From: Bacteroidota bacterium
Lineage (GTDB): Bacteria; Bacteroidota; Bacteroidia; Chitinophagales; LD1
Direction: 5' to 3'
Assembly (NCBI GenBank): GCA_947479455.1
Contig: CANJZE010000023.1
Span: 1-61,520 of the forward strand
DNA length: 61,520 bases
Both the position numbers and the translations under genes were made by a program. The notes under the pieces are model-generated. The model did not search any database. It was not told where the DNA came from and was given only the letters and a program-made list of their open reading frames with translations. Below, in pieces: positions 32,805-52,228 of the stretch; the stretch's first letter is position 1; every line of letters begins with the position of its first letter.

Positions 32805-33776
32805 ATGCTTATGAAAAAAAGAGTAATTCGTTATTTGCGCAGGCATATTGATAAGGTTTTGCCACCAGAACCTTCGCCCGTTCCTGCAACCATAGAAACC
32901 AAATTTTTGAATTTAACCGAGTTTGAATTTTCGGAAGGACAGAAAGTGGTCCTCGAAAAAAAACCAAACTTGGTCTACCTGGTTGCCCCTATTGCGCGCT
33001 CAGGCCACAACTATATTTCTAACCTGTTGCTTAAGCACAAGGAAATTAAATTTCCGTCAGGCACTAATTTACCTGGAGAGCAAAACATTATGCAGCACAG
33101 TGCGCACCTCATGTGGTATGCACAAAAAACAGTTGCCGAACAAAAGGGTTGGGAGAGCAAATCGGAAGAGTTAGTCAAATTGCAATCAGCTCTTTTATTA
33201 CGAGCCATGGGTTATTCGCTCATTGAGTTTTATTCAAAATTTATTCCGGCTAATGCAAAGTACTTGTTGCTGAAAGACCCCGCCACTGTGGGTATCGAAA
33301 ATTTTTCAAGTGTTTTTCCGGAAGGGAAATTGATTTGCCTGTTACGCGATGGTCGCGATGTGGTGGAGTCTTTTATTAAAACGTTTAAACGATACAGCTT
33401 TGAGCAAGCCACAGAGCAATGGCGCGATGGTACCGAAAGAATGTTGCAGTTGCAGAGCAGTTCCACTTGCTTGCAAATACAATATGAGCAGGTGTTTGCC
33501 AACCCAACACAGGAAATGAAAAAGGTTCTGGCTTTTTTAAACCTAGATGAAAAGGATTATGCCTTTGATAGTTTAGATGACCTGCCCATTTTTGGTTCTT
33601 CCACCAATAGTGTTAATGAAAAAGGGGAAGTAGATTGGTCTATCACCAACAACAAAAAAGATTTTAAGCCTGTAGGCAAATGGCAGCAATGGAGTGCTGA
33701 CCAAAAAAATATTTTCAAAAAAATAGCCGGAGAAACACTCATACGTGCGGGTTATGAACAGAATGGTAATTGGTAG
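32805..33776 (+). CDS. sulfotransferase family protein, 323 aa
   Basis: The PAPS-binding loops are visible. The 5'-phosphosulfate loop is LVAPIARSGHNYI, and the 3'-phosphate loop is ICLLRDGRDVVESFIKTF. FKPVGKWQQW and KKIAGETLIRAGYE near the end also fit sulfotransferases. The enzyme would move sulfate from PAPS to a hydroxyl of a sugar or lipid in the cytoplasm. It is a single plus-strand gene between two minus-strand glycosyltransferases. It ends exactly next to the convergent gene (33776/33777). No PAPS synthesis gene is in the window. Two in-frame starts (MLMKK) are 6 nt apart. Confidence 0.85.
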   Translation: MLMKKRVIRYLRRHIDKVLPPEPSPVPATIETKFLNLTEFEFSEGQKVVLEKKPNLVYLVAPIARSGHNYISNLLLKHKEIKFPSGTNLPGEQNIMQHSAHLMWYAQKTVAEQKGWESKSEELVKLQSALLLRAMGYSLIEFYSKFIPANAKYLLLKDPATVGIENFSSVFPEGKLICLLRDGRDVVESFIKTFKRYSFEQATEQWRDGTERMLQLQSSSTCLQIQYEQVFANPTQEMKKVLAFLNLDEKDYAFDSLDDLPIFGSSTNSVNEKGEVDWSITNNKKDFKPVGKWQQWSADQKNIFKKIAGETLIRAGYEQNGNW

Positions 33777-36632: not shown

Positions 36633-37565
36633 TTATTTCTTTCCCAGTAACGATTTAATAAATCGTGTAGCGCTGCTCATAAATTTTCCTCCGGGTAAAT
36701 TATACAAGAGCGAAACTACACGCGCGTTGTTTTTCGGGTCGAGAGGGTAACGCCACAAATAAGTTAGAATTGCTCCATTCATTTTCGATTTATCGCCAAG
36801 TTTTTCCCAAACCATAATGTATTGACTATCGAAAGCGTGTTGAATTTGTTTTTTGAACGCAGCAGAAATTTTTCCTTTCAAAGCCGGATTCGAAAAAATA
36901 ATTTGCATAGCTTTTACCTGCGGTGTAATGTATTCTTTGAAAAGCGCTTTTGTGTTTTCTTCATGAATGAGCATTTCTACAGTTACCTCACGAATTTGAA
37001 CAAGCGGATATTCATTCATAATTCGCGTATTCAATTCCACATCTTCATTTACCCGAAGTGCTGTATTGAACTGGTGCTTCATCAATATTTCGCGATGCAA
37101 ACATTGCGTAGAAGGGCCAATTTGATTTCGTATTATATATTCAATTGGGTTTTTGTTTTCCGGTGAATCAAAAAAAACATCTTGTTTTCTGCCGCCATCA
37201 AAACACCAACGCACCACGGTAAAGTAAAGTGCCGGCTTGAAACTATTTTTTTCAATGGCGGTATACATGGTTTGCAAATGATGGGGCAACCAAACATCAT
37301 CGCTGTCCAGAAAACAAATGAACTTTCCGGTGGCTTTTAAAATTCCATTATTGCGTGCAGCACTGCGCTCAGCATTTTCCTGATAAAAATATTTTACCCG
37401 GTCATCAACAAACGACCCCAACACGTCTTTTGTGTTGTCAGAGCTTCCATCGTCAATCAATATCAACTCCCAATCATTAAAACTTTGTGACAGAACTGAA
37501 CGAATAGTAGCCGCAATTAAATGGGCTCTATTGTAGGATGGAATGATGACAGAGAAGAAAGGCAT
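36633..37565 (-). CDS. GT2-family glycosyltransferase, 310 aa
   Basis: MPFFSVIIPSYNRAHLI starts the GT-A fold; LIDDGSSDNT, AERSAARNNGI and FLDSDDVWLPHHL are all present. RVNEDVELNTRI is the acceptor-side motif. The ATG at 37565 is preferred over a TTG at 37571. The N-terminal half is close to that of 31760-32701. It is divergent from the epimerase gene, whose ATG is 68 bp away. Confidence 0.92.
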   Translation of the reverse strand: MPFFSVIIPSYNRAHLIAATIRSVLSQSFNDWELILIDDGSSDNTKDVLGSFVDDRVKYFYQENAERSAARNNGILKATGKFICFLDSDDVWLPHHLQTMYTAIEKNSFKPALYFTVVRWCFDGGRKQDVFFDSPENKNPIEYIIRNQIGPSTQCLHREILMKHQFNTALRVNEDVELNTRIMNEYPLVQIREVTVEMLIHEENTKALFKEYITPQVKAMQIIFSNPALKGKISAAFKKQIQHAFDSQYIMVWEKLGDKSKMNGAILTYLWRYPLDPKNNARVVSLLYNLPGGKFMSSATRFIKSLLGKK

Positions 37566-37633
37566 TTTCAATGTTCGAAAATAAATGTTTTTTTAGCCTT
37601 GCAACACTTCACGTTATTCAATCCACAAAAAAA

Positions 37634-38596
37634 ATGAAATCTGTTTTAGTAACCGGCTGTGCAGGTTTTATTGGCAGTACCTTGTGTAATGAGTTATTGA
37701 ATCAAGGTTATCGGGTAGTTGGTATTGATAATTTGGACCCTTTCTATCCTCGCGCTTTGAAAGAAAAAAATTTGAACACTTGTCTTTCCAACAATTCTTT
37801 TAAGTTTTACGAGAGTGATATTTCCGACAAAACAGTCTTGGGTAAAATAAATGATTCAGTTGATGCGGTCATTCACTTAGCGGCAAAAGTAGGTGTTCGT
37901 CCTTCGTTGAACAACCCGCTTGAATACATCCAAACCAATATTATTGGCACCCAAAACATTTTGAATTGGATGTATGAACGCAACTTAAAGAAATTAGTTT
38001 TTGCTTCTTCCTCTTCGGTTTACGGTAACGATACGCCTGTTCCATTTTCTGAAGCTGCTCATGTTGACCACCCCATTTCGCCTTATGCGTTTACAAAAAA
38101 AGCGGCTGAGTTACTGAACCATACTTACCATTCTCTTTATCAGTTTGATATTGTAAACCTGCGTTTTTTTACCGTGTATGGTGAGCGACAGCGACCAGAT
38201 TTGGCTGTATACAAATTCGTAGATGCTATATTTAAAAAGCGAGCAATTACGATGTATGGCCAAGGAGATACTTCGCGCGATTATACTTATGTGCAGGATA
38301 CGGTGGCGGGAATTATTGCCGCGCTTCATTACGTTTTTGAAAACAAAAATGTTTTTGAAGTAGCAAATTTAGGAAACAACCATCCCGTTTCGCTTAAGGA
38401 ATTAGTAGAAACGATTTATGAATTGATAGGGGAAGAACCAAATATTCGCTATGAACCTAAACAAGCTGGCGATGTGGATGTAACGTTTGCCGATATTTCA
38501 AAAGCAAAAAAATTATTTAGTTACAATCCGCAAACAAGTTTACGCCAAGGCTTGACAAATTTTATTGTTTGGTACAGAACACAACAAATTAACTGA
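37634..38596 (+). CDS. NAD-dependent sugar epimerase, UDP-glucuronate 4-epimerase-like, 320 aa
   Basis: An extended short-chain dehydrogenase. VTGCAGFIGS at residues 6-15 gives the NAD-binding G-x-x-G-x-x-G. ASSSSVYGN carries the active-site Ser, and SPYAFTKK the catalytic Y-x-x-x-K. RFFTVYGERQRPD, GQGDTSRDYTYV and the tail FIVWYRT match the UDP-glucuronate 4-epimerase branch (UDP-GlcA to UDP-GalA) better than GalE or RmlB. The ATG at 37634 is chosen because the upstream 21 codons from 37571 overlap the divergent gene. It opens the plus-strand group with the dioxygenase and the aldo/keto reductase. Confidence 0.85.
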   Translation: MKSVLVTGCAGFIGSTLCNELLNQGYRVVGIDNLDPFYPRALKEKNLNTCLSNNSFKFYESDISDKTVLGKINDSVDAVIHLAAKVGVRPSLNNPLEYIQTNIIGTQNILNWMYERNLKKLVFASSSSVYGNDTPVPFSEAAHVDHPISPYAFTKKAAELLNHTYHSLYQFDIVNLRFFTVYGERQRPDLAVYKFVDAIFKKRAITMYGQGDTSRDYTYVQDTVAGIIAALHYVFENKNVFEVANLGNNHPVSLKELVETIYELIGEEPNIRYEPKQAGDVDVTFADISKAKKLFSYNPQTSLRQGLTNFIVWYRTQQIN

Positions 38597-38648
38597 GGAG
38601 TATCATCAGTAAAATAATTTTTCAAAAAATTATTTTTACAACAAAATC

Positions 38649-39428
38649 ATGCTTATGCAATTTTTCACAGCCGTGCCTTTTACCAATGCCGAAGAAACCA
38701 CTCGAAACATTAAAGCTGCTTTAGCCACAACGAAAGTGGTTCAACTTCTTTCTGCTCCGCCCGAAATTGACATGAAACAATTTTTTGAAGGGCTGGCTGA
38801 TAGCATAGGCAACTATTATGATGTAAATGAAGATTTGGAAACAGGCGGCATTCAGGAAGGAAGATGGATTGATATTACTTACGACCCGAACGTGCCTAAC
38901 CGTTATCGTTCCAGCAATACACGTCAGCCGCTTCATACCGATGCCTCGTATTATCCTATTGATAACAACATTCAATATTTCTACTGTGCTTCGCACGCTT
39001 ACTTGGGCGGAGCTACCACCTTCATTGATACAAAGTTGATTGTAGAATCTTTGTTGATAGATGGTCGCGAAGATTTGTTGAATCGCTTGCAGGAAACGCC
39101 TGTGCATTTTTCAAAATTTGTGCGAAACAAAACCAAACCTATTTTAATGAAGGATGGTGATGACTGGCGCGTAAATTTTAATTACTACTGCCTCGACAAA
39201 AATATTTCCTCGGAAGTAAAAGCACTGGCCGATGAGTTTTTCGAATTTTTAGAAACCAGAATTCAGAACGCTGGATTGTTTACTCCTGTGAATTTGCAAA
39301 AACGCGAAGCCGTTTTCTTTCACGATGAAAAAGTAATGCACGGTCGCAACGCATTTTTTGCACGCACACCCGCAGAACGTAGCTTAATCAAAGGCACCAT
39401 TATAGAATGGGAAAACCGCTTAAGTTGA
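38649..39428 (+). CDS. Fe(II)/2-oxoglutarate-dependent TauD/TfdA-like dioxygenase, 259 aa
   Basis: The iron-binding facial triad is visible: His96 and Asp98 in QPLHTDASYY and His231 in VMHGRNAF. Arg239 and Arg244 in FARTPAERSLIKG are placed to bind 2-oxoglutarate. The family oxidises or hydroxylates small molecules such as taurine, sulfonates, amino acids or natural products. The substrate here is unknown. It has only 52 bp to the epimerase gene and overlaps the aldo/keto reductase by 22 nt, which ties the three together. A dioxygenase in the middle of a polysaccharide locus is unusual. Confidence 0.85.
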   Translation: MLMQFFTAVPFTNAEETTRNIKAALATTKVVQLLSAPPEIDMKQFFEGLADSIGNYYDVNEDLETGGIQEGRWIDITYDPNVPNRYRSSNTRQPLHTDASYYPIDNNIQYFYCASHAYLGGATTFIDTKLIVESLLIDGREDLLNRLQETPVHFSKFVRNKTKPILMKDGDDWRVNFNYYCLDKNISSEVKALADEFFEFLETRIQNAGLFTPVNLQKREAVFFHDEKVMHGRNAFFARTPAERSLIKGTIIEWENRLS

Positions 39429-40357
39429 AATTGAAACACGCCATGGGTTTTGGCACCTGGCAGTTGGGTGGCGAAACACAATTCGGCAATAGGCAAACGG
39501 GTTGGGGAAAAATTGATGAGCAGGAAGCGGTACGAGCTATTCATTATGCGCTCGAAAACGGAATCGAATTTTTCGACACAGCCGATGCTTACGGCAAAGG
39601 AAAATCAGAAATTATTTTGGGCAACGCTTTTAAGCAAAAGCAAAATTATCATCCCGTTGTTTGCACAAAAGTTGGTTCGCGTTGGGATATTGACGGAAGT
39701 TTCTATCAAGATTTTTCTCCTGTTTGGATTGAGCAGGCGGTTCTCGCTTCCTTAAAAAGATTGCAACTTGAAAATATTGACACACTTCTTCTTCATAGCC
39801 CCGATGTAAATTTCGATTGGCAGAATTATGATTTATCTTTTTTTGAAAAACTGATTGGGCGCGGAATAATTAACCGTTATGGTGTTAGTGTAAAAGCTAC
39901 AGCCGCTATTCCTCCAATTCAAAAACAAAAAGTAGGCTCTGTGATTGAAGCAATCTTCAATGTAGTGGATAGACGATTGAAAAACTTTGCTGACAACAGT
40001 TTCGATTTCATTGCACGCGTTCCTTTGTGTTCGGGTTTTCTTACACAAAAAACCTTTACTGAAATTCCGAATTTTAGCAGCACCGATATTCGACAATACA
40101 TTCCCGATACAGACAAAAATTGGTTGGTAGAAAATATTCGCAAGCTCATTTTTCTCAACGATTTAGAAGGCGGCATTGAAGTTTCTGCTTTACGGTTTTG
40201 TTTAACTCACCCGTTTGTGAATGTTTGCGTTCCCGGTATGTATAAAGTAAAACACGTGGATAGTGTTATCAAAGCTATCGAGCTAGGAAAACTTTCGGAC
40301 GAAATAATTTTAAAGGTGGAAGAAGCAATGGTGGGTTTGCCACCGGGTTGGACGTAA
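39407..40357 (+). CDS. aldo/keto reductase, 316 aa
   Basis: A TIM-barrel NADPH oxidoreductase with all four catalytic residues: Asp57 and Tyr62 in FFDTADAYGKGKSE, Lys88 in VVCTKVG and His130 in LLLHSPD. VCVPGMYKVKHVD near the end contacts NADPH. The start overlaps the dioxygenase gene by 22 nt, so the two are translationally coupled. It is probably the reducing partner that handles a carbonyl made by the dioxygenase or the epimerase-type enzyme; this is inferred. The stop is 4 bp from the convergent GT2 gene. Confidence 0.92.
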   Translation: MGKPLKLKLKHAMGFGTWQLGGETQFGNRQTGWGKIDEQEAVRAIHYALENGIEFFDTADAYGKGKSEIILGNAFKQKQNYHPVVCTKVGSRWDIDGSFYQDFSPVWIEQAVLASLKRLQLENIDTLLLHSPDVNFDWQNYDLSFFEKLIGRGIINRYGVSVKATAAIPPIQKQKVGSVIEAIFNVVDRRLKNFADNSFDFIARVPLCSGFLTQKTFTEIPNFSSTDIRQYIPDTDKNWLVENIRKLIFLNDLEGGIEVSALRFCLTHPFVNVCVPGMYKVKHVDSVIKAIELGKLSDEIILKVEEAMVGLPPGWT

Positions 40358-40360
40358 CCT

Positions 40361-41374
40361 TTACGGCTGCTTCAACACGTTTACATTTTTGTAAACCTTT
40401 TCAAACATCTGCGAATACTGTGCTTTCAATTTCCACAGCTCACTAATCTCTCCGCGCATTCCATAGTAGCGCAACACATCTTCGTTTCCTTCTTCGTTTA
40501 ATTTCCCAATAACAGTGATATAAAATTTAAAGGTTGCTTTTGCTTTATGAAGCCAAGTATCGAACCAAAAAGACAAGCGAAGATTTTGATTTGGCACACG
40601 ATTGTTTTTTTCTACATACCGGTAAGCGTAGGTATAAATATTGGTGCGCCCGAAACCGAAATACAATTTTTTCAAATAGTCCCAACTCATTCTTCCGGTG
40701 GTCATCAAATGTTTAAATTTTAAATCGCGGCTATACCACACTTCTTTTCCGAAGTAGCGCGCGAGATAACACCACTCGGTATCTCCTCCCGAAATCAACT
40801 GTCCTCCGCTTCTGTCAGAAAGTACATTCTGAATTCCTGAATTGAAAAGTTGCTGCAAAAAAGATTTGCGAACCGTAAATCCCGCACCATAAACTTCTGT
40901 CACTTTCGATAAACTTTCTTTGGAAGCAGACTGGTCGCCTACAGCAAAATTCTTTTCCAACTTTTTAAACCATGATGGTTCTATACTTTCGAAAACAGCC
41001 TCACCCATTCCACCGAGGATAGCGATTTGCTCATTTGCCTTCATAATTTCAAAAACCCCTTGCACATAATTTTCGGCCAGCCAATTATCATCATCGCAAT
41101 AAAGCAGGCAATCAAATTTAGAAACCGAAAACCCTTTTCGTCTGGCGCTTGAAAGCCCAGCAGTGTTTTCTTTTACGACCTGAAACAGAATGGAAGATTT
41201 TTGTAAAATTTCATTGGCGAGATCAAACGTGTTGTCTGTAGAAGCATTGTCGACTATAATAAGTTCCCAGGCAAAACTGTTATCGGTCTTTTGCCGAACA
41301 ATATGATTTATAGTATCATGCAATCGCGCAACGCTATTGTAACAACACACAATTATGGAAACCCCTGCACCCAT
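40361..41374 (-). CDS. GT2-family glycosyltransferase, 337 aa
   Basis: VSIIVCCYNSVARLHDTINHIV opens the fold. LIIVDNASTDNT and LLYCDDDNWLAENYV hold the nucleotide and D-x-D sites. SARRKGF and GGDTEWCYLARYFGKEVWY are further GT2 patterns. It ends a minus-strand run reaching from 52228 to 40361; the gap to the next gene is 3 bp. Confidence 0.92.
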   Translation of the reverse strand: MGAGVSIIVCCYNSVARLHDTINHIVRQKTDNSFAWELIIVDNASTDNTFDLANEILQKSSILFQVVKENTAGLSSARRKGFSVSKFDCLLYCDDDNWLAENYVQGVFEIMKANEQIAILGGMGEAVFESIEPSWFKKLEKNFAVGDQSASKESLSKVTEVYGAGFTVRKSFLQQLFNSGIQNVLSDRSGGQLISGGDTEWCYLARYFGKEVWYSRDLKFKHLMTTGRMSWDYLKKLYFGFGRTNIYTYAYRYVEKNNRVPNQNLRLSFWFDTWLHKAKATFKFYITVIGKLNEEGNEDVLRYYGMRGEISELWKLKAQYSQMFEKVYKNVNVLKQP

Positions 41375-43084: not shown

Positions 43085-44131
43085 TTATTTACTTTGCGTG
43101 AGTTGCAGAAAAGTTGATGACATTGCTTGTGTATACAATCTTGCCCCTTCAACATTTACATGGCCCAAGTCATAAGCATATCGCAGTTCATAAAACTGCG
43201 GATAGTTGTAGGGGTCACCAATATCAATTCGGTTTTCGGCTGGTAATGATTTAAAAACAGGGATCACATTTCTATAGTGTGTTTCTTCAAGTTTTGGCGG
43301 TAGAACAAAAATCACGGTCACTCCAAATTCTTTTCCTTCATCAATCATTTGTTTAGCAATAGTAGAATAGGTTTCATTCAGTTTCCCTACCGATTCGGTG
43401 GTACGAAAAATTTCTTGGGTATTACGGTGCAACACATTTAGTTGGTCGGTGTGTTTCAACAGTTCTAAATGAGGGTTGGTGGTTTTACCCTGCAAAACAA
43501 AATTGAGAGTAGTATCGTTGTTCTGCAGCGGAACAAAAAAATTACCGCAAACAACATGGCTGTGTTGTTGGTTTTGTTTGAACGGCATTACTTCATTCAG
43601 CGAGTTAAAATGCAAAACACATTCCATCCAGTTTATGGTGTGTGCCATACTCCCCGCCACTTTTCGATAAACAGGATAAGCCGATTGCCATAAACTTTTT
43701 AGAGAAGTAAAGTACGTTGATGTGCTGTAATAATATTTTTTACGCAGCGTATGCAGATTAACCGCATCAAAAGTGTCTACATCACAAAGTTCCACCAGTA
43801 TATACTTGGCGTGCAAATTTTTAATGCGTAAAATATTTTCAAACTCATAATGCAGTTCAGGAATGGTCATGGCATCAATACCAAAATTAAAAGTGTGTGT
43901 GCTATTGATATTTTGGTTAAGGGAGTCAAAATACTCGGGATTGATTTGACGAAAAACACGGCTTGAGCCCATGAGTACTGTGTTGTATTGTGCTGCATTT
44001 TTTTCGAGGCATTGTTCTTTTCCATAAAAATTTCCCCAGGAAAACGGCAGTTTTATAAACGAAAAAATCAGTTGGTTAATAATTACCGCAACTAACAAAA
44101 GCACCCCTGTTTTAAAAAACAATTTTTTCAT
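43085..44131 (-). CDS. SGNH/AlgX-like protein paired with the MBOAT acyltransferase, 348 aa
   Basis: A single N-terminal membrane helix (FFKTGVLLLVAVIINQLIF) places the rest outside the cytoplasmic membrane. VLMGSSRVFRQ is the catalytic Ser block. YDLGHVNVEGARLY near the end carries the Asp and His of an SGNH triad. In AlgI/AlgX-like and DltB/DltD-like systems such a protein takes the acyl group from the MBOAT partner and puts it on the glycan. The MBOAT gene starts 3 bp upstream on the same strand. Overall identity to named families is low. Confidence 0.7.
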   Translation of the reverse strand: MKKLFFKTGVLLLVAVIINQLIFSFIKLPFSWGNFYGKEQCLEKNAAQYNTVLMGSSRVFRQINPEYFDSLNQNINSTHTFNFGIDAMTIPELHYEFENILRIKNLHAKYILVELCDVDTFDAVNLHTLRKKYYYSTSTYFTSLKSLWQSAYPVYRKVAGSMAHTINWMECVLHFNSLNEVMPFKQNQQHSHVVCGNFFVPLQNNDTTLNFVLQGKTTNPHLELLKHTDQLNVLHRNTQEIFRTTESVGKLNETYSTIAKQMIDEGKEFGVTVIFVLPPKLEETHYRNVIPVFKSLPAENRIDIGDPYNYPQFYELRYAYDLGHVNVEGARLYTQAMSSTFLQLTQSK

Positions 44132-50896: not shown

Positions 50897-52228
50897 CTAA
50901 TCAGATTCTGGATGGGTAATGCGGTAATGGGTAACAATAAGCAATACCGCTAATAACGGTTGAACCGGAATGCGATAACGCACCAAAGCGCCATAATTAA
51001 AACTGGTCATACCAATAGCAATTCCTACAATTATAATTATGGGAAGACAGAGCATAACTATATGGTCGCGAAACAAAACGTTTAGCGCTCGATACGCTCG
51101 GCCAGTTAAAAACACTCGAAAAAAATAGAACAAAAACACCAAGCTCTCGATGCCCGATAATAACATAACCGCATTCCGAATTTGCCAAACAAAGGGGCCA
51201 AACAAACAAATAACTAAAGCAAGCGGTGCTTTGCGAAGAATTCCTGCAAGGCTATAATCTACATCGTTTCCTAATGAATAAAACGAACCTCCCTTAGTTT
51301 CACCTAACGTGGTATGCCAGCTGTGAAAGCCTTCGGCTTTTTGTGCAAGTGCATCTAAGTTGTAAGACTGTACAGAGTTTCCAATGCCCTGAATAAAAAG
51401 ATATGAAGCTGCTCCGCCTACTAATAAAAAGATAGGCCCCGCAACAATTCGTAAAATACCACTCCTTAATGCACTGCGATAATAAACAGCGGTCATTAGC
51501 ATAGCACCGGGTATAATAGAAAACAAAATAAAGCCACGAATTGAAGAAATGATTATGCCCGAAATAACCAGCCAAAGAATATTTGCAACAATATTTTTTT
51601 TGCTGATAACTAACTGGTAGTAGGAAGTGATAAATAAAAAAATGCATCCAAGCATAATCGTGTCTTTTGACACACCCGAACCCCAAAACACTACTGATGG
51701 AATCATTAAAAATGCAATGGCAAATTGTTTTTCGAGCTTCGGATAAATCGAACAAAAAAGAGCGAATGCGCGGAACACAAAAATGTAAGAGATAAAACTA
51801 AAAACTACCGTGCATGCCATATAAGAGTTAAAGCAAAAAAGGTTGACAAATCCGCCAATGCGAATAGTAGTAAGCGATGCTGTTCCTCTTAACAAATAAG
51901 CTGCTCCATGTGTATAAACCTCATAATGACACTCGGGCGGGTAACCAGGAAGCGGGGTGAGTACAAAGTATAAACAGGTTACAGGGTCACGAAAAAACAA
52001 TTTAAACAAGGGCTTCATGGTGATGTAAAAATTGATGGTGTCACCCCCACGGTAGTAGAATAAATAAATGAAGGCAAAGCCAAGCGCGCCAAACATTTTA
52101 TAATTAAGTCCACGCATATAGTACCGCTGGTAAATAGGATTGCCAGCGTTTTTACTGCGTATAAAATTGGCGAAGAAATAAATGAACCCAAGATAGAGCG
52201 GCAATAAGAGTATGTCTATTACATCCAT
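50897..52228 (-). CDS. polytopic membrane protein, possible polysaccharide polymerase, 443 aa
   Basis: About ten hydrophobic segments separated by short loops and one larger loop (SVQSYNLDALAQKAEGFHSW...GNDVDYS, about residues 285-335). The large periplasmic loop and the RYRIPVQPLL near the last helix recall Wzy/EpsG-like polymerases and other glycan membrane enzymes, but there is no diagnostic motif. I do not assign a family. It is the first gene of the long minus-strand operon and divergent from asnB3. With an ABC exporter present, a Wzy would not be expected, so another membrane function (flippase, ligase, mannosyltransferase-like) is equally possible. Confidence 0.7.
   Translation of the reverse strand: MDVIDILLLPLYLGFIYFFANFIRSKNAGNPIYQRYYMRGLNYKMFGALGFAFIYLFYYRGGDTINFYITMKPLFKLFFRDPVTCLYFVLTPLPGYPPECHYEVYTHGAAYLLRGTASLTTIRIGGFVNLFCFNSYMACTVVFSFISYIFVFRAFALFCSIYPKLEKQFAIAFLMIPSVVFWGSGVSKDTIMLGCIFLFITSYYQLVISKKNIVANILWLVISGIIISSIRGFILFSIIPGAMLMTAVYYRSALRSGILRIVAGPIFLLVGGAASYLFIQGIGNSVQSYNLDALAQKAEGFHSWHTTLGETKGGSFYSLGNDVDYSLAGILRKAPLALVICLFGPFVWQIRNAVMLLSGIESLVFLFYFFRVFLTGRAYRALNVLFRDHIVMLCLPIIIIVGIAIGMTSFNYGALVRYRIPVQPLLAVLLIVTHYRITHPESD

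Follow-up and report, generated by a model that had tools for sequence, protein, structure and literature searches.

The window, a 61,520-nucleotide stretch of a Bacteroidota contig, carries three adjacent plus-strand genes for a putative epimerase, a 2-oxoglutarate dioxygenase and an aldo-keto reductase (AKR). An earlier sequence-only reading proposed that they form a new sugar-modification unit. This raises the question of which of these genes belong together, and what reaction they could perform.

Gene layout and enzyme families

The following features were considered:

32805..33776, plus strand: sulfotransferase (PF13469, 66.8 bits)
36633..37571, minus strand: family 2 glycosyltransferase, upstream flank (PF00535)
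37571-38596, plus strand: open reading frame (ORF) of the epimerase
37634..38596, plus strand: NAD-dependent SDR, probably a UDP-uronate/UDP-sugar 4-epimerase (PF01370, 198.4 bits)
38649..39428, plus strand: Fe(II)/2-oxoglutarate dioxygenase of the TauD/TfdA superfamily with a gamma-butyrobetaine-hydroxylase-like fold (259 aa; PF02668)
39407..40357, plus strand: aldo-keto reductase (316 aa; PF00248)
40361..41374, minus strand: family 2 glycosyltransferase, downstream flank (PF00535)

For the epimerase gene, the start at 37634, giving a protein of 320 aa that begins with MKSVLVTG, is more likely than that at 37571. A gap of 52 bp (38597-38648) separates it from the dioxygenase gene, which overlaps the reductase gene by 22 nt (39407-39428). 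The re-derived coordinates agree with the earlier description of three plus-strand genes, the gap and the overlap; the minus-strand glycan surroundings were likewise found, both flanking genes being glycosyltransferases on that strand.

The dioxygenase matched PF02668 (TauD) with 57.5 bits at a cut-off of 27, and no other Pfam model. Its iron ligands H96, D98 and H231, as well as R244, which by its position we take to be the 2-oxoglutarate ligand, were identical in all 40 aligned homologues. This alignment (A3) omits 6 of the 46 cluster members, namely the split L026, the partial L051, and L042, L066, L067 and L070, taken as copies of retained rows. The PF02668 score, the HxD...H site and the candidate 2-oxoglutarate arginine place the protein in the TauD/TfdA superfamily. 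The paired clade also conserves five basic residues, R72, R87, K156, K161 and K248, which are candidates for binding a diphosphate. The best structural match of its predicted model (pLDDT 92.3) was 4bgm/4bg1 (Z 23.0, rmsd 3.0, 242 aligned residues, 17-18% identity). By fold and profile the best matches were gamma-butyrobetaine hydroxylase, TmpA and DfmD, whose iron ligands are the same in the alignment, but these are longer chains, and the window protein aligns from their residue 107-115, without their N-terminal part; the structural alignment to human gamma-butyrobetaine dioxygenase starts at residue 111. The nearest solved relatives, gamma-butyrobetaine hydroxylase and TmpA, are far off (16-18% identity), and the tight clustering with a characterised family of non-sugar substrate that would have spoken against the original proposal was not seen. 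The protein falls outside TIGR02409 (gamma-butyrobetaine dioxygenase), with 34.9 bits against a cut-off of 414.75 over profile positions 180-355 only. In a check of betaine recognition, its invariant N178 paired with BBOX N290, not N292 (numbering from the printed alignment). A giant-virus TauD protein was the top match in the viral fold library; plasmid records gave one match (27%), and phage records gave none.

The reductase matched PF00248 with 152.2 bits (cut-off 24) and has the catalytic tetrad D57/Y62/K88/H130, which assigns it to the AKR superfamily. In the alignment, Y62, K88 and H130 were present in 27 of 27 sequences and D57 in 26, the only exception being the divergent cyanobacterial reductase of locus L049. 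The intact catalytic residues first noted in the window for both enzymes were confirmed. The best structural matches of the predicted reductase model (pLDDT 92.5) were L-galactose dehydrogenases (Z 30-31), with other AKRs scoring equally well. AKR11 (IolS, YhdN) and L-galactose dehydrogenase, its top sequence and structure matches, have the same PF00248 fold and tetrad, but identity in structural alignments is 22%-28%, and the window enzyme differs in having a dioxygenase partner. Membership of an AKR family takes over 40% identity with one of its named proteins, and the enzyme lies outside AKR11 (25% to 1pyf and 1pz1, 28% to 1ynp, 27% to 3n2t).

Judged by codon comparisons, both genes are clearly under purifying selection. 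The dN/dS values were 0.034-0.042 for the dioxygenase against three sister genomes (first 162 codons only for L026) and 0.070-0.083 for the reductase against two, these ratios being rough since synonymous distances were about 1 or above 1 in many comparisons.

The dioxygenase-reductase pair and its upstream epimerase

The scan of genome contigs, with genera including Spirosoma, Fibrella and Larkinella, yielded 39 loci, in 25 of which the reductase lay immediately behind the dioxygenase. The gene order was kept, with the dioxygenase first and the reductase downstream on one strand, and a stop/start overlap was present in 14 of the 25 pairs (starts chosen by the analyst). Among 200 genomes of the Spirosoma/Fibrella family, 38 contained the dioxygenase, 35 the reductase subfamily and 34 both (Fisher p 8.5e-33, overstated by relatedness); only one reductase-bearing genome lacked the dioxygenase. 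The genes were adjacent in 31 genomes, which places the pairing far outside the strain to which the original proposal had feared it might be confined. In the other three co-occurring genomes the genes were on separate contigs (G777 and G778) or the reductase, only 36% identical, was elsewhere on the chromosome (G791). Sequence distances of the two proteins were strongly correlated (Mantel r 0.91, p 1e-4, 32 pairs). By gene order, co-occurrence and sequence distance, the dioxygenase and the reductase are a real, old and co-inherited two-gene module.

The ORFs used for dioxygenase clustering, neighbourhoods, the tree and Mantel test, and the glycan-marker count given below were called with a simple longest-ORF script. 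The tree and Mantel test omit dioxygenases below 240 aa, reductases below 290 aa and, like the marker count, the re-fetched duplicates L078, L079, L084 and L089. Locus L053 was omitted from the neighbourhood comparison, the tree/Mantel set and the marker count, and L060 and L061 are missing from the same sets because their dioxygenase ORF was not picked by the ORF caller.

In support of the pairing, the partner reductases in G632 and G750 were 45% identical to that of the window, against at most 32% for every other reductase listed for nine genomes. In the cyanobacterial loci L049 and L056, a different PF00248 reductase, 19% identical, lies immediately behind the dioxygenase (overlap of 4 nt in L049), an arrangement to be expected with a carbonyl product that has to be reduced. 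The reductase is absent and the dioxygenase retained in L025, L041, L083, L085 and L086; these losses and the constraint on the dioxygenase towards L025 (dN/dS 0.042) suggest that the dioxygenase product is useful without the reductase. A single origin of pairing on the dioxygenase tree was rejected, since the label requires 9 changes, compared with a mean of 13 after shuffling, which points to several losses or transfers on a tree with some long, poorly placed branches.

The best solved relatives of the epimerase were 5u4q (titled a dehydratase), followed by 6zl6/6zlj and MoeE5, of which 6zl6 and MoeE5 are UDP-GlcA epimerases. In the UDP-glucuronate 4-epimerase test, the NCBIfam equivalogs listed all fell short of their cut-offs (galE with 191.9 of 262.3). 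A close epimerase adjoins the pair only in the genus of the window (four genomes: the window, L024, L025 and L026). Three Spirosoma loci have a 57.5-58.6% identical epimerase at a distance of 7-8 kb, and in the other fetched stretches (up to 10 kb per side) the best epimerase was 42% identical and on the opposite strand (L056). On this restriction to one genus the trio was rejected as a unit, and on its distribution the epimerase is a local neighbour outside the conserved pair, with no observed link to the substrate of the latter. That a single sugar derived from a UDP-uronate is processed by all three enzymes in turn is highly improbable. In the window, L024 and L026, the three plus-strand genes directly follow one another, the Spirosoma epimerases share the locus with the pair, and three matches to PF03721 (UDP-glucose/GDP-mannose dehydrogenase) lie elsewhere in the genome (G000). 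However, besides having only remote counterparts beyond these loci, the epimerase remains beside the dioxygenase in L025, where the reductase is missing, and diverges faster than the dioxygenase (76-82% vs 92-96%). With the trio reading corrected, the epimerase is no guide to substrate choice.

Genomic surroundings

Glycan markers were protein clusters named from one or a few Pfam-tested members, so other glycan genes are missed; one cluster without a Pfam name occurs only in the row of the window, which has other markers. A marker was located within five genes in 35 of 49 loci, spanning lineages that include Chitinophagaceae, Cytophagales and cyanobacteria, and in 24 of 34 paired loci, while none of the markers used was found in the other 14 and 10, respectively. 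Location in a glycan biosynthesis locus is therefore usual, but was overstated as a rule; a search for conserved adjacency within such loci, as originally suggested, bears out the adjacency and overlap but not the glycan restriction. One marker-less locus, L083, does have an adjoining Core-2/I-branching glycosyltransferase. Neighbours in marker-less loci include YdjC, amidase, PhyH, Gfo/Idh, PfkB, class II tRNA synthetase, glucuronyl esterase, periplasmic binding protein, FtsZ, ParB, DapB and PAPS reductase. The pair, or a lone dioxygenase, adjoins housekeeping or sugar-catabolism genes in one genus (g328) and in a number of other genomes. Neighbours include FtsZ in L030, class II tRNA synthetase in L077 and L081, ParB and DapB in L086, histidine and class-III aminotransferase genes in L036, and sugar-catabolism-type genes in L075.

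Particular neighbours were also considered. WbqC is encoded directly upstream of the dioxygenase in several loci, but was rejected as an informative partner, since PF08889 is near-universal (197 of the 200 Spirosoma/Fibrella-family genomes) and its co-occurrence says nothing. The formyltransferase of the window scored above its cut-off (311.7 bits vs 238). A dTDP-Qui4N formyl sugar was rejected as the required substrate: the 200 Spirosoma/Fibrella-family genomes, of which 38 contain the dioxygenase, yielded no NF005755 match, a null result that is weak because the 14 control genomes also gave no match. As a lead only, the sulfotransferase tracks the presence and absence of the reductase across the four sister genomes: G000, G016 and G007 have it at 71-100%, and it is absent in G017, where only a 25% match was found. 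A sulfotransferase motif search in the fetched loci returned only L044, L047, L048 and L060, with Pfam confirmation for L044 and L047; it is non-exhaustive, since the motif misses the window's own sulfotransferase.

Possible reactions and known systems

The most economical reading of the pair, in line with the original proposal and with a pairing conserved far beyond the strain, is that a small molecule acquires a carbonyl through the dioxygenase and the reductase converts this group to an alcohol, in the manner of KanJ/KanK in kanamycin; we give it roughly even chances. With O2 and 2-oxoglutarate, the dioxygenase would hydroxylate a carbon bearing a heteroatom or hydroxyl, and the hydroxylated adduct would collapse to a ketone or aldehyde. 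The reductase would then use NAD(P)H to reduce this carbonyl, so that a substituent would be swapped for OH or a stereocentre inverted. The second step presumably runs in the reductive direction, although AKRs, including the top structural match L-galactose dehydrogenase, also act as dehydrogenases. Most likely the substrate is small and soluble, for example a nucleotide sugar or an acyl or amino substituent of one, because the pair usually lies beside glycan genes yet also away from them. Against a sugar, the hydroxylation substrates of the closest solved dioxygenases are betaines and amino acids. Only tentatively, the pair may work as a portable cassette of two enzymes in which O2-dependent oxidation and AKR reduction alter a single carbon of a nucleotide sugar or completed glycan unit (stereocentre inversion, or amino/acyl to OH). 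Sugar diversity would then arise by a route apart from the classical 4-keto NDP-sugar pathway, with the new hydroxyl primed for sulfation in some lineages.

The alternatives overlap in part, and their odds do not sum to one. It is doubtful that the dioxygenase only installs a stable hydroxyl while the reductase serves another step of the same pathway: this fits the genomes that keep the dioxygenase alone and the closest solved relatives, mostly plain hydroxylases, but not the almost complete confinement of the reductase to genomes that also have the dioxygenase (34 of 35) or the frequent stop/start overlap. We are just as hesitant about a betaine-, amino-acid- or phosphonate-like substrate, with glycan loci met by gene traffic. 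The matches to gamma-butyrobetaine hydroxylase, TmpA and DfmD and the FtsZ, tRNA synthetase, ParB/DapB, aminotransferase and sugar-catabolism-type contexts point that way, whereas the low identity to these solved relatives and the glycan markers near most loci in diverse lineages argue otherwise. TauD, TfdA and AtsK, the last of which was one of the dioxygenase's Foldseek matches, release carbonyl compounds. In the same way, cleavage of a C-N, C-O or C-S bond could free a small aldehyde for the reductase to detoxify, the trimmed substrate being the useful product. Such a clean-up role would explain why several lineages dispense with the reductase, but it is unlikely, since a general aldehyde reductase would be less tied to its partner than this subfamily, which is nearly specific to dioxygenase genomes and co-diverges with it.

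Should its substrate be a sugar, the pair would provide an O2-dependent way to unusual sugars, and its tight linkage makes the two enzymes directly amenable to testing in environmental genera that include named strains (Spirosoma, Fibrella, Larkinella). Even with another substrate, co-inheritance marks an uncharacterised two-step pathway and aids the prediction of function in two families that are large and poorly annotated.

A search of open-licence articles found none on such a pair in polysaccharide loci; given this scope, it does not show absence from print. Among known systems, DepA/DepB is catabolic, and DepA is a quinone-dependent dehydrogenase, not a 2-oxoglutarate dioxygenase. DepB, an AKR among the structural matches of the window reductase, reduces the 3-keto intermediate to the epimer in deoxynivalenol epimerisation, according to the excerpted text of PMC9427786. 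With family TIGR04324 (sporadic carbohydrate cluster 2OG-Fe(II) oxygenase), such oxygenases already have a recognised place in certain carbohydrate clusters. In L035, a protein encoded next to the dioxygenase shows a weak match to this family (37.7 bits, cut-off 150) and is PhyH-type (PF05721), not TauD-type. KanJ and KanK are PhyH-like and Gfo/Idh-like, whereas the window enzymes are TauD and AKR; organisms and locus type also differ, and only the logic is in common. In the excerpted accounts (PMC5533434, PMC5461906), the 2-oxoglutarate dioxygenase KanJ forms 2'-oxokanamycin, which KanK reduces with NADPH; a sugar carbon is thus taken to a ketone and then to an alcohol, as would be the case for the pair proposed here.

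Gene organization of the window locus

The gene positions proposed in the sequence-only reading were borne out by ORF analysis, as were the 52-bp gap between the epimerase and dioxygenase genes and the 22-nt overlap of the dioxygenase and reductase ORFs. The three genes are as follows.

From 37634 (likely start), plus strand, upstream of the pair: epimerase (ORF; Pfam Epimerase)
38649-39428, plus strand: dioxygenase (ORF; Pfam TauD)
39407-40357, plus strand: aldo-keto reductase, AKR (ORF; Pfam Aldo_ket_red)

The surrounding genes are mostly on the minus strand. Judging from its ABC exporter pair (Pfam ABC_tran and ABC2_membrane), glycosyltransferases (Pfam), MBOAT acyltransferase, DegT aminotransferase, and a formyltransferase scoring above the cut-off for the dTDP-4-amino-4,6-dideoxyglucose enzyme, the locus reads as an ABC-transporter-type polysaccharide locus; the Wzt C-terminal domain was only a sub-threshold hint. 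The host genome comprises 3.76 Mb in 70 contigs, and the closest relatives in genome_contigs are metagenome-assembled Bacteroidetes. The products of 43085-44131 (minus strand, adjoining the MBOAT gene) and 50897-52228 (minus strand) matched no Pfam or NCBIfam model at the threshold used. A sulfotransferase gene at 32805-33776 (plus strand) was found in all three reductase-bearing sister genomes, with only a 25% match in the reductase-less sister G017. Sulfotransferases also occur near the pair in loci L044 and L047 and, by motif, in L048.

Distribution and genomic context of the pair

The dioxygenase and the reductase are a real pair. Their adjacency is conserved beyond this strain, which strengthens the pair hypothesis of the earlier reading: the genome_contigs scan yielded 39 dioxygenase loci, and a matching reductase lay directly downstream in 25. 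The other 14 include L035, truncated by its contig end, plus L049 and L056, each with a different reductase in that position. Dioxygenase homologues were present in 9/396 genomes of the order sample (reductase adjacent in five, not in four) and 3/395 of the phylum sample (adjacent in all three). Searching 200 genomes in the family of G632, which contains Spirosoma and Fibrella contigs and was taken as Spirosomataceae, identified the dioxygenase (E ≤1e-25) in 38, the reductase subfamily (E ≤1e-45) in 35, and both in 34, with adjacent same-strand genes in 31 (Fisher p 8.5e-33, an overstatement since related genomes are not independent). In the three non-adjacent cases, the genes lie on different contigs (G777 and G778) or the reductase is distant from the dioxygenase gene and only 36% identical (G791). 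In G906, which is among the four dioxygenase-only genomes, the gene lies 274 bases from a contig end, on the reductase's expected side. The protein distances correlate (r 0.91, 32 pairs), and the stop and start of the two genes overlap in 14 of 25 pairs. In a comparison of nine genomes, the window's reductase shares 45% identity with the partner reductases of G632 and G750 but at most 32% with the other reductases listed for the nine.

The proposal that the trio forms a unit was not upheld: a close epimerase adjoins the pair or the dioxygenase only in the window and in L024, L025, and L026 of the same genus. Three Spirosoma loci encode an epimerase with 57.5%–58.6% identity 7–8 kb away in the same locus, and the best epimerase in the other fetched stretches (up to 10 kb each side) was 42% identical, on the opposite strand in L056. 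Nor was a general confinement of the pair to polysaccharide loci upheld. At least one glycan marker (GT2, GT4, GT11, DegT, Wzm, Wzt, WbqC, or AsnB) was present within five genes in 35/49 loci (24/34 reductase-bearing loci), leaving 14 loci without markers, nine of them from a single genus, g328; one of these nine, L083, has a Core-2/I-branching glycosyltransferase beside the dioxygenase. Neighbours in marker-less loci include YdjC, amidase, PhyH, Gfo/Idh, PfkB kinase, class II tRNA synthetase, glucuronyl esterase, periplasmic binding protein, FtsZ (L030), ParB and DapB (L086), and PAPS reductase (L032). No third gene tracked the pair at every locus compared. These observations suggest that the two enzymes suffice on their own for a two-step conversion, with a soluble molecule and not one particular polymer as its substrate.

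WbqC was rejected as an informative neighbour in cells because 197/200 genomes have the family. Eight viral contigs (L063-L070, partly near-copies) encode distant dioxygenase homologues (24%–34%), preceded by WbqC and, before that, a DegT-type gene, and have no reductase there; the gene families were tested on representatives. Upstream of the pair, Spirosoma-type loci repeatedly carry two protein families (L038:7034-7978 and L038:8031-8879) that had no Pfam match; the former is weakly similar to beta-1,2-mannobiose phosphorylase.

The dioxygenase is kept without an adjacent reductase in L025, L041, L083, L085, and L086, and the genome carrying L025 (G017) had no other close reductase (best match 31%). 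Conversely, the reductase subfamily occurs without the dioxygenase only in G870 among the G632-family genomes. This asymmetry implies that the reductase is dependent on the dioxygenase but not the dioxygenase on the reductase, the pattern that a dispensable or replaceable second step would produce. Two cyanobacterial loci have another AKR (19% identical in L049) immediately behind the dioxygenase, apparently recruited independently or else a highly diverged partner. These strongly diverged AKRs (L049:10001-11739 and L056:8785-10527, coordinates including the dioxygenase homologue) both match PF00248, and that of L049 lacks the tetrad aspartate. At L083:6824-10357 (G901, reductase missing), a PhyH-type 2OG oxygenase gene as well as the glycosyltransferase gene adjoins the dioxygenase, and in L050 a PhyH gene lies immediately upstream of it.

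Active sites, structural relatives, and predicted reaction

Both enzymes look active: as the sequence-only reading had noted, their catalytic residues are intact, the dioxygenase iron ligands and R244 being identical in 40/40 aligned homologues and the reductase tetrad retaining Y, K, and H in 27/27 and D in 26/27. The dN/dS ratios, rough because many pairs have synonymous distances close to or exceeding 1 and two of the values were not computable, were 0.034–0.042 for the dioxygenase against three sister genomes (the lowest of eight genes tested), 0.070–0.083 for the reductase (two sister genomes), and 0.069–0.115 for the epimerase. In L026, the dioxygenase reading frame (sister genome G007, L026:10001-10775) is broken into two overlapping ORFs, either an assembly error or a decaying gene, whereas the reductase is intact; the dioxygenase ratio for L026 was therefore calculated from its first 162 codons only.

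The dioxygenase model (pLDDT 92.3) best matched the human gamma-butyrobetaine hydroxylase, with Z 23.0 and rmsd 3.0 over 242 aligned residues (17%–18% identity), followed by TmpA, with Z 21.9 and rmsd 3.1 over 240 (16%). These are the nearest solved folds, at an identity of only 16%–18%. Profile search returned the same group, with DfmD first. The dioxygenase fell far short of the butyrobetaine-hydroxylase equivalog cut-off (34.9 vs 414.75 bits). R72, R87, K156, K161, and K248 are identical in all 25 dioxygenases labelled as paired and are partly replaced among the other 15; the paired set also counts L030 and L035, in which the reductase is on a different contig of the genome. An anionic substrate, e.g., a nucleotide sugar, would suit these basic residues. 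For the reductase model, L-galactose dehydrogenases scored best, with Z 30.9 and rmsd 2.8 over 288 aligned residues (22% identity), level with a Kv-beta-type AKR. The top match to the dioxygenase in the viral fold library was a giant-virus TauD protein (BFVD A0A7D3QUI2, Fadolivirus; 21% identity), whose TM over the query, 0.81, is higher than those of the solved structures among the matches listed.

The finding of an uncharacterised enzyme pair is well supported. Most economically, the dioxygenase would form a carbonyl that would then be reduced by the reductase, the step that all the evidence shares. Alternatively, the reductase could clean up a released aldehyde, the dioxygenase could perform a plain hydroxylation alongside an unrelated reductase step, or the pair could act on a betaine-like, non-glycan substrate; these three rival readings overlap partly with one another and with carbonyl formation and reduction. 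A worked precedent for oxidise-then-reduce logic is KanJ/KanK, which, in the cited passages, convert kanamycin B to 2'-oxokanamycin and, by reduction, to kanamycin A (PMC5533434; PMC5461906). A second logic is that of DepB, an AKR described as reducing a keto intermediate to the epimer (PMC9427786). The pair is not assigned to either system.
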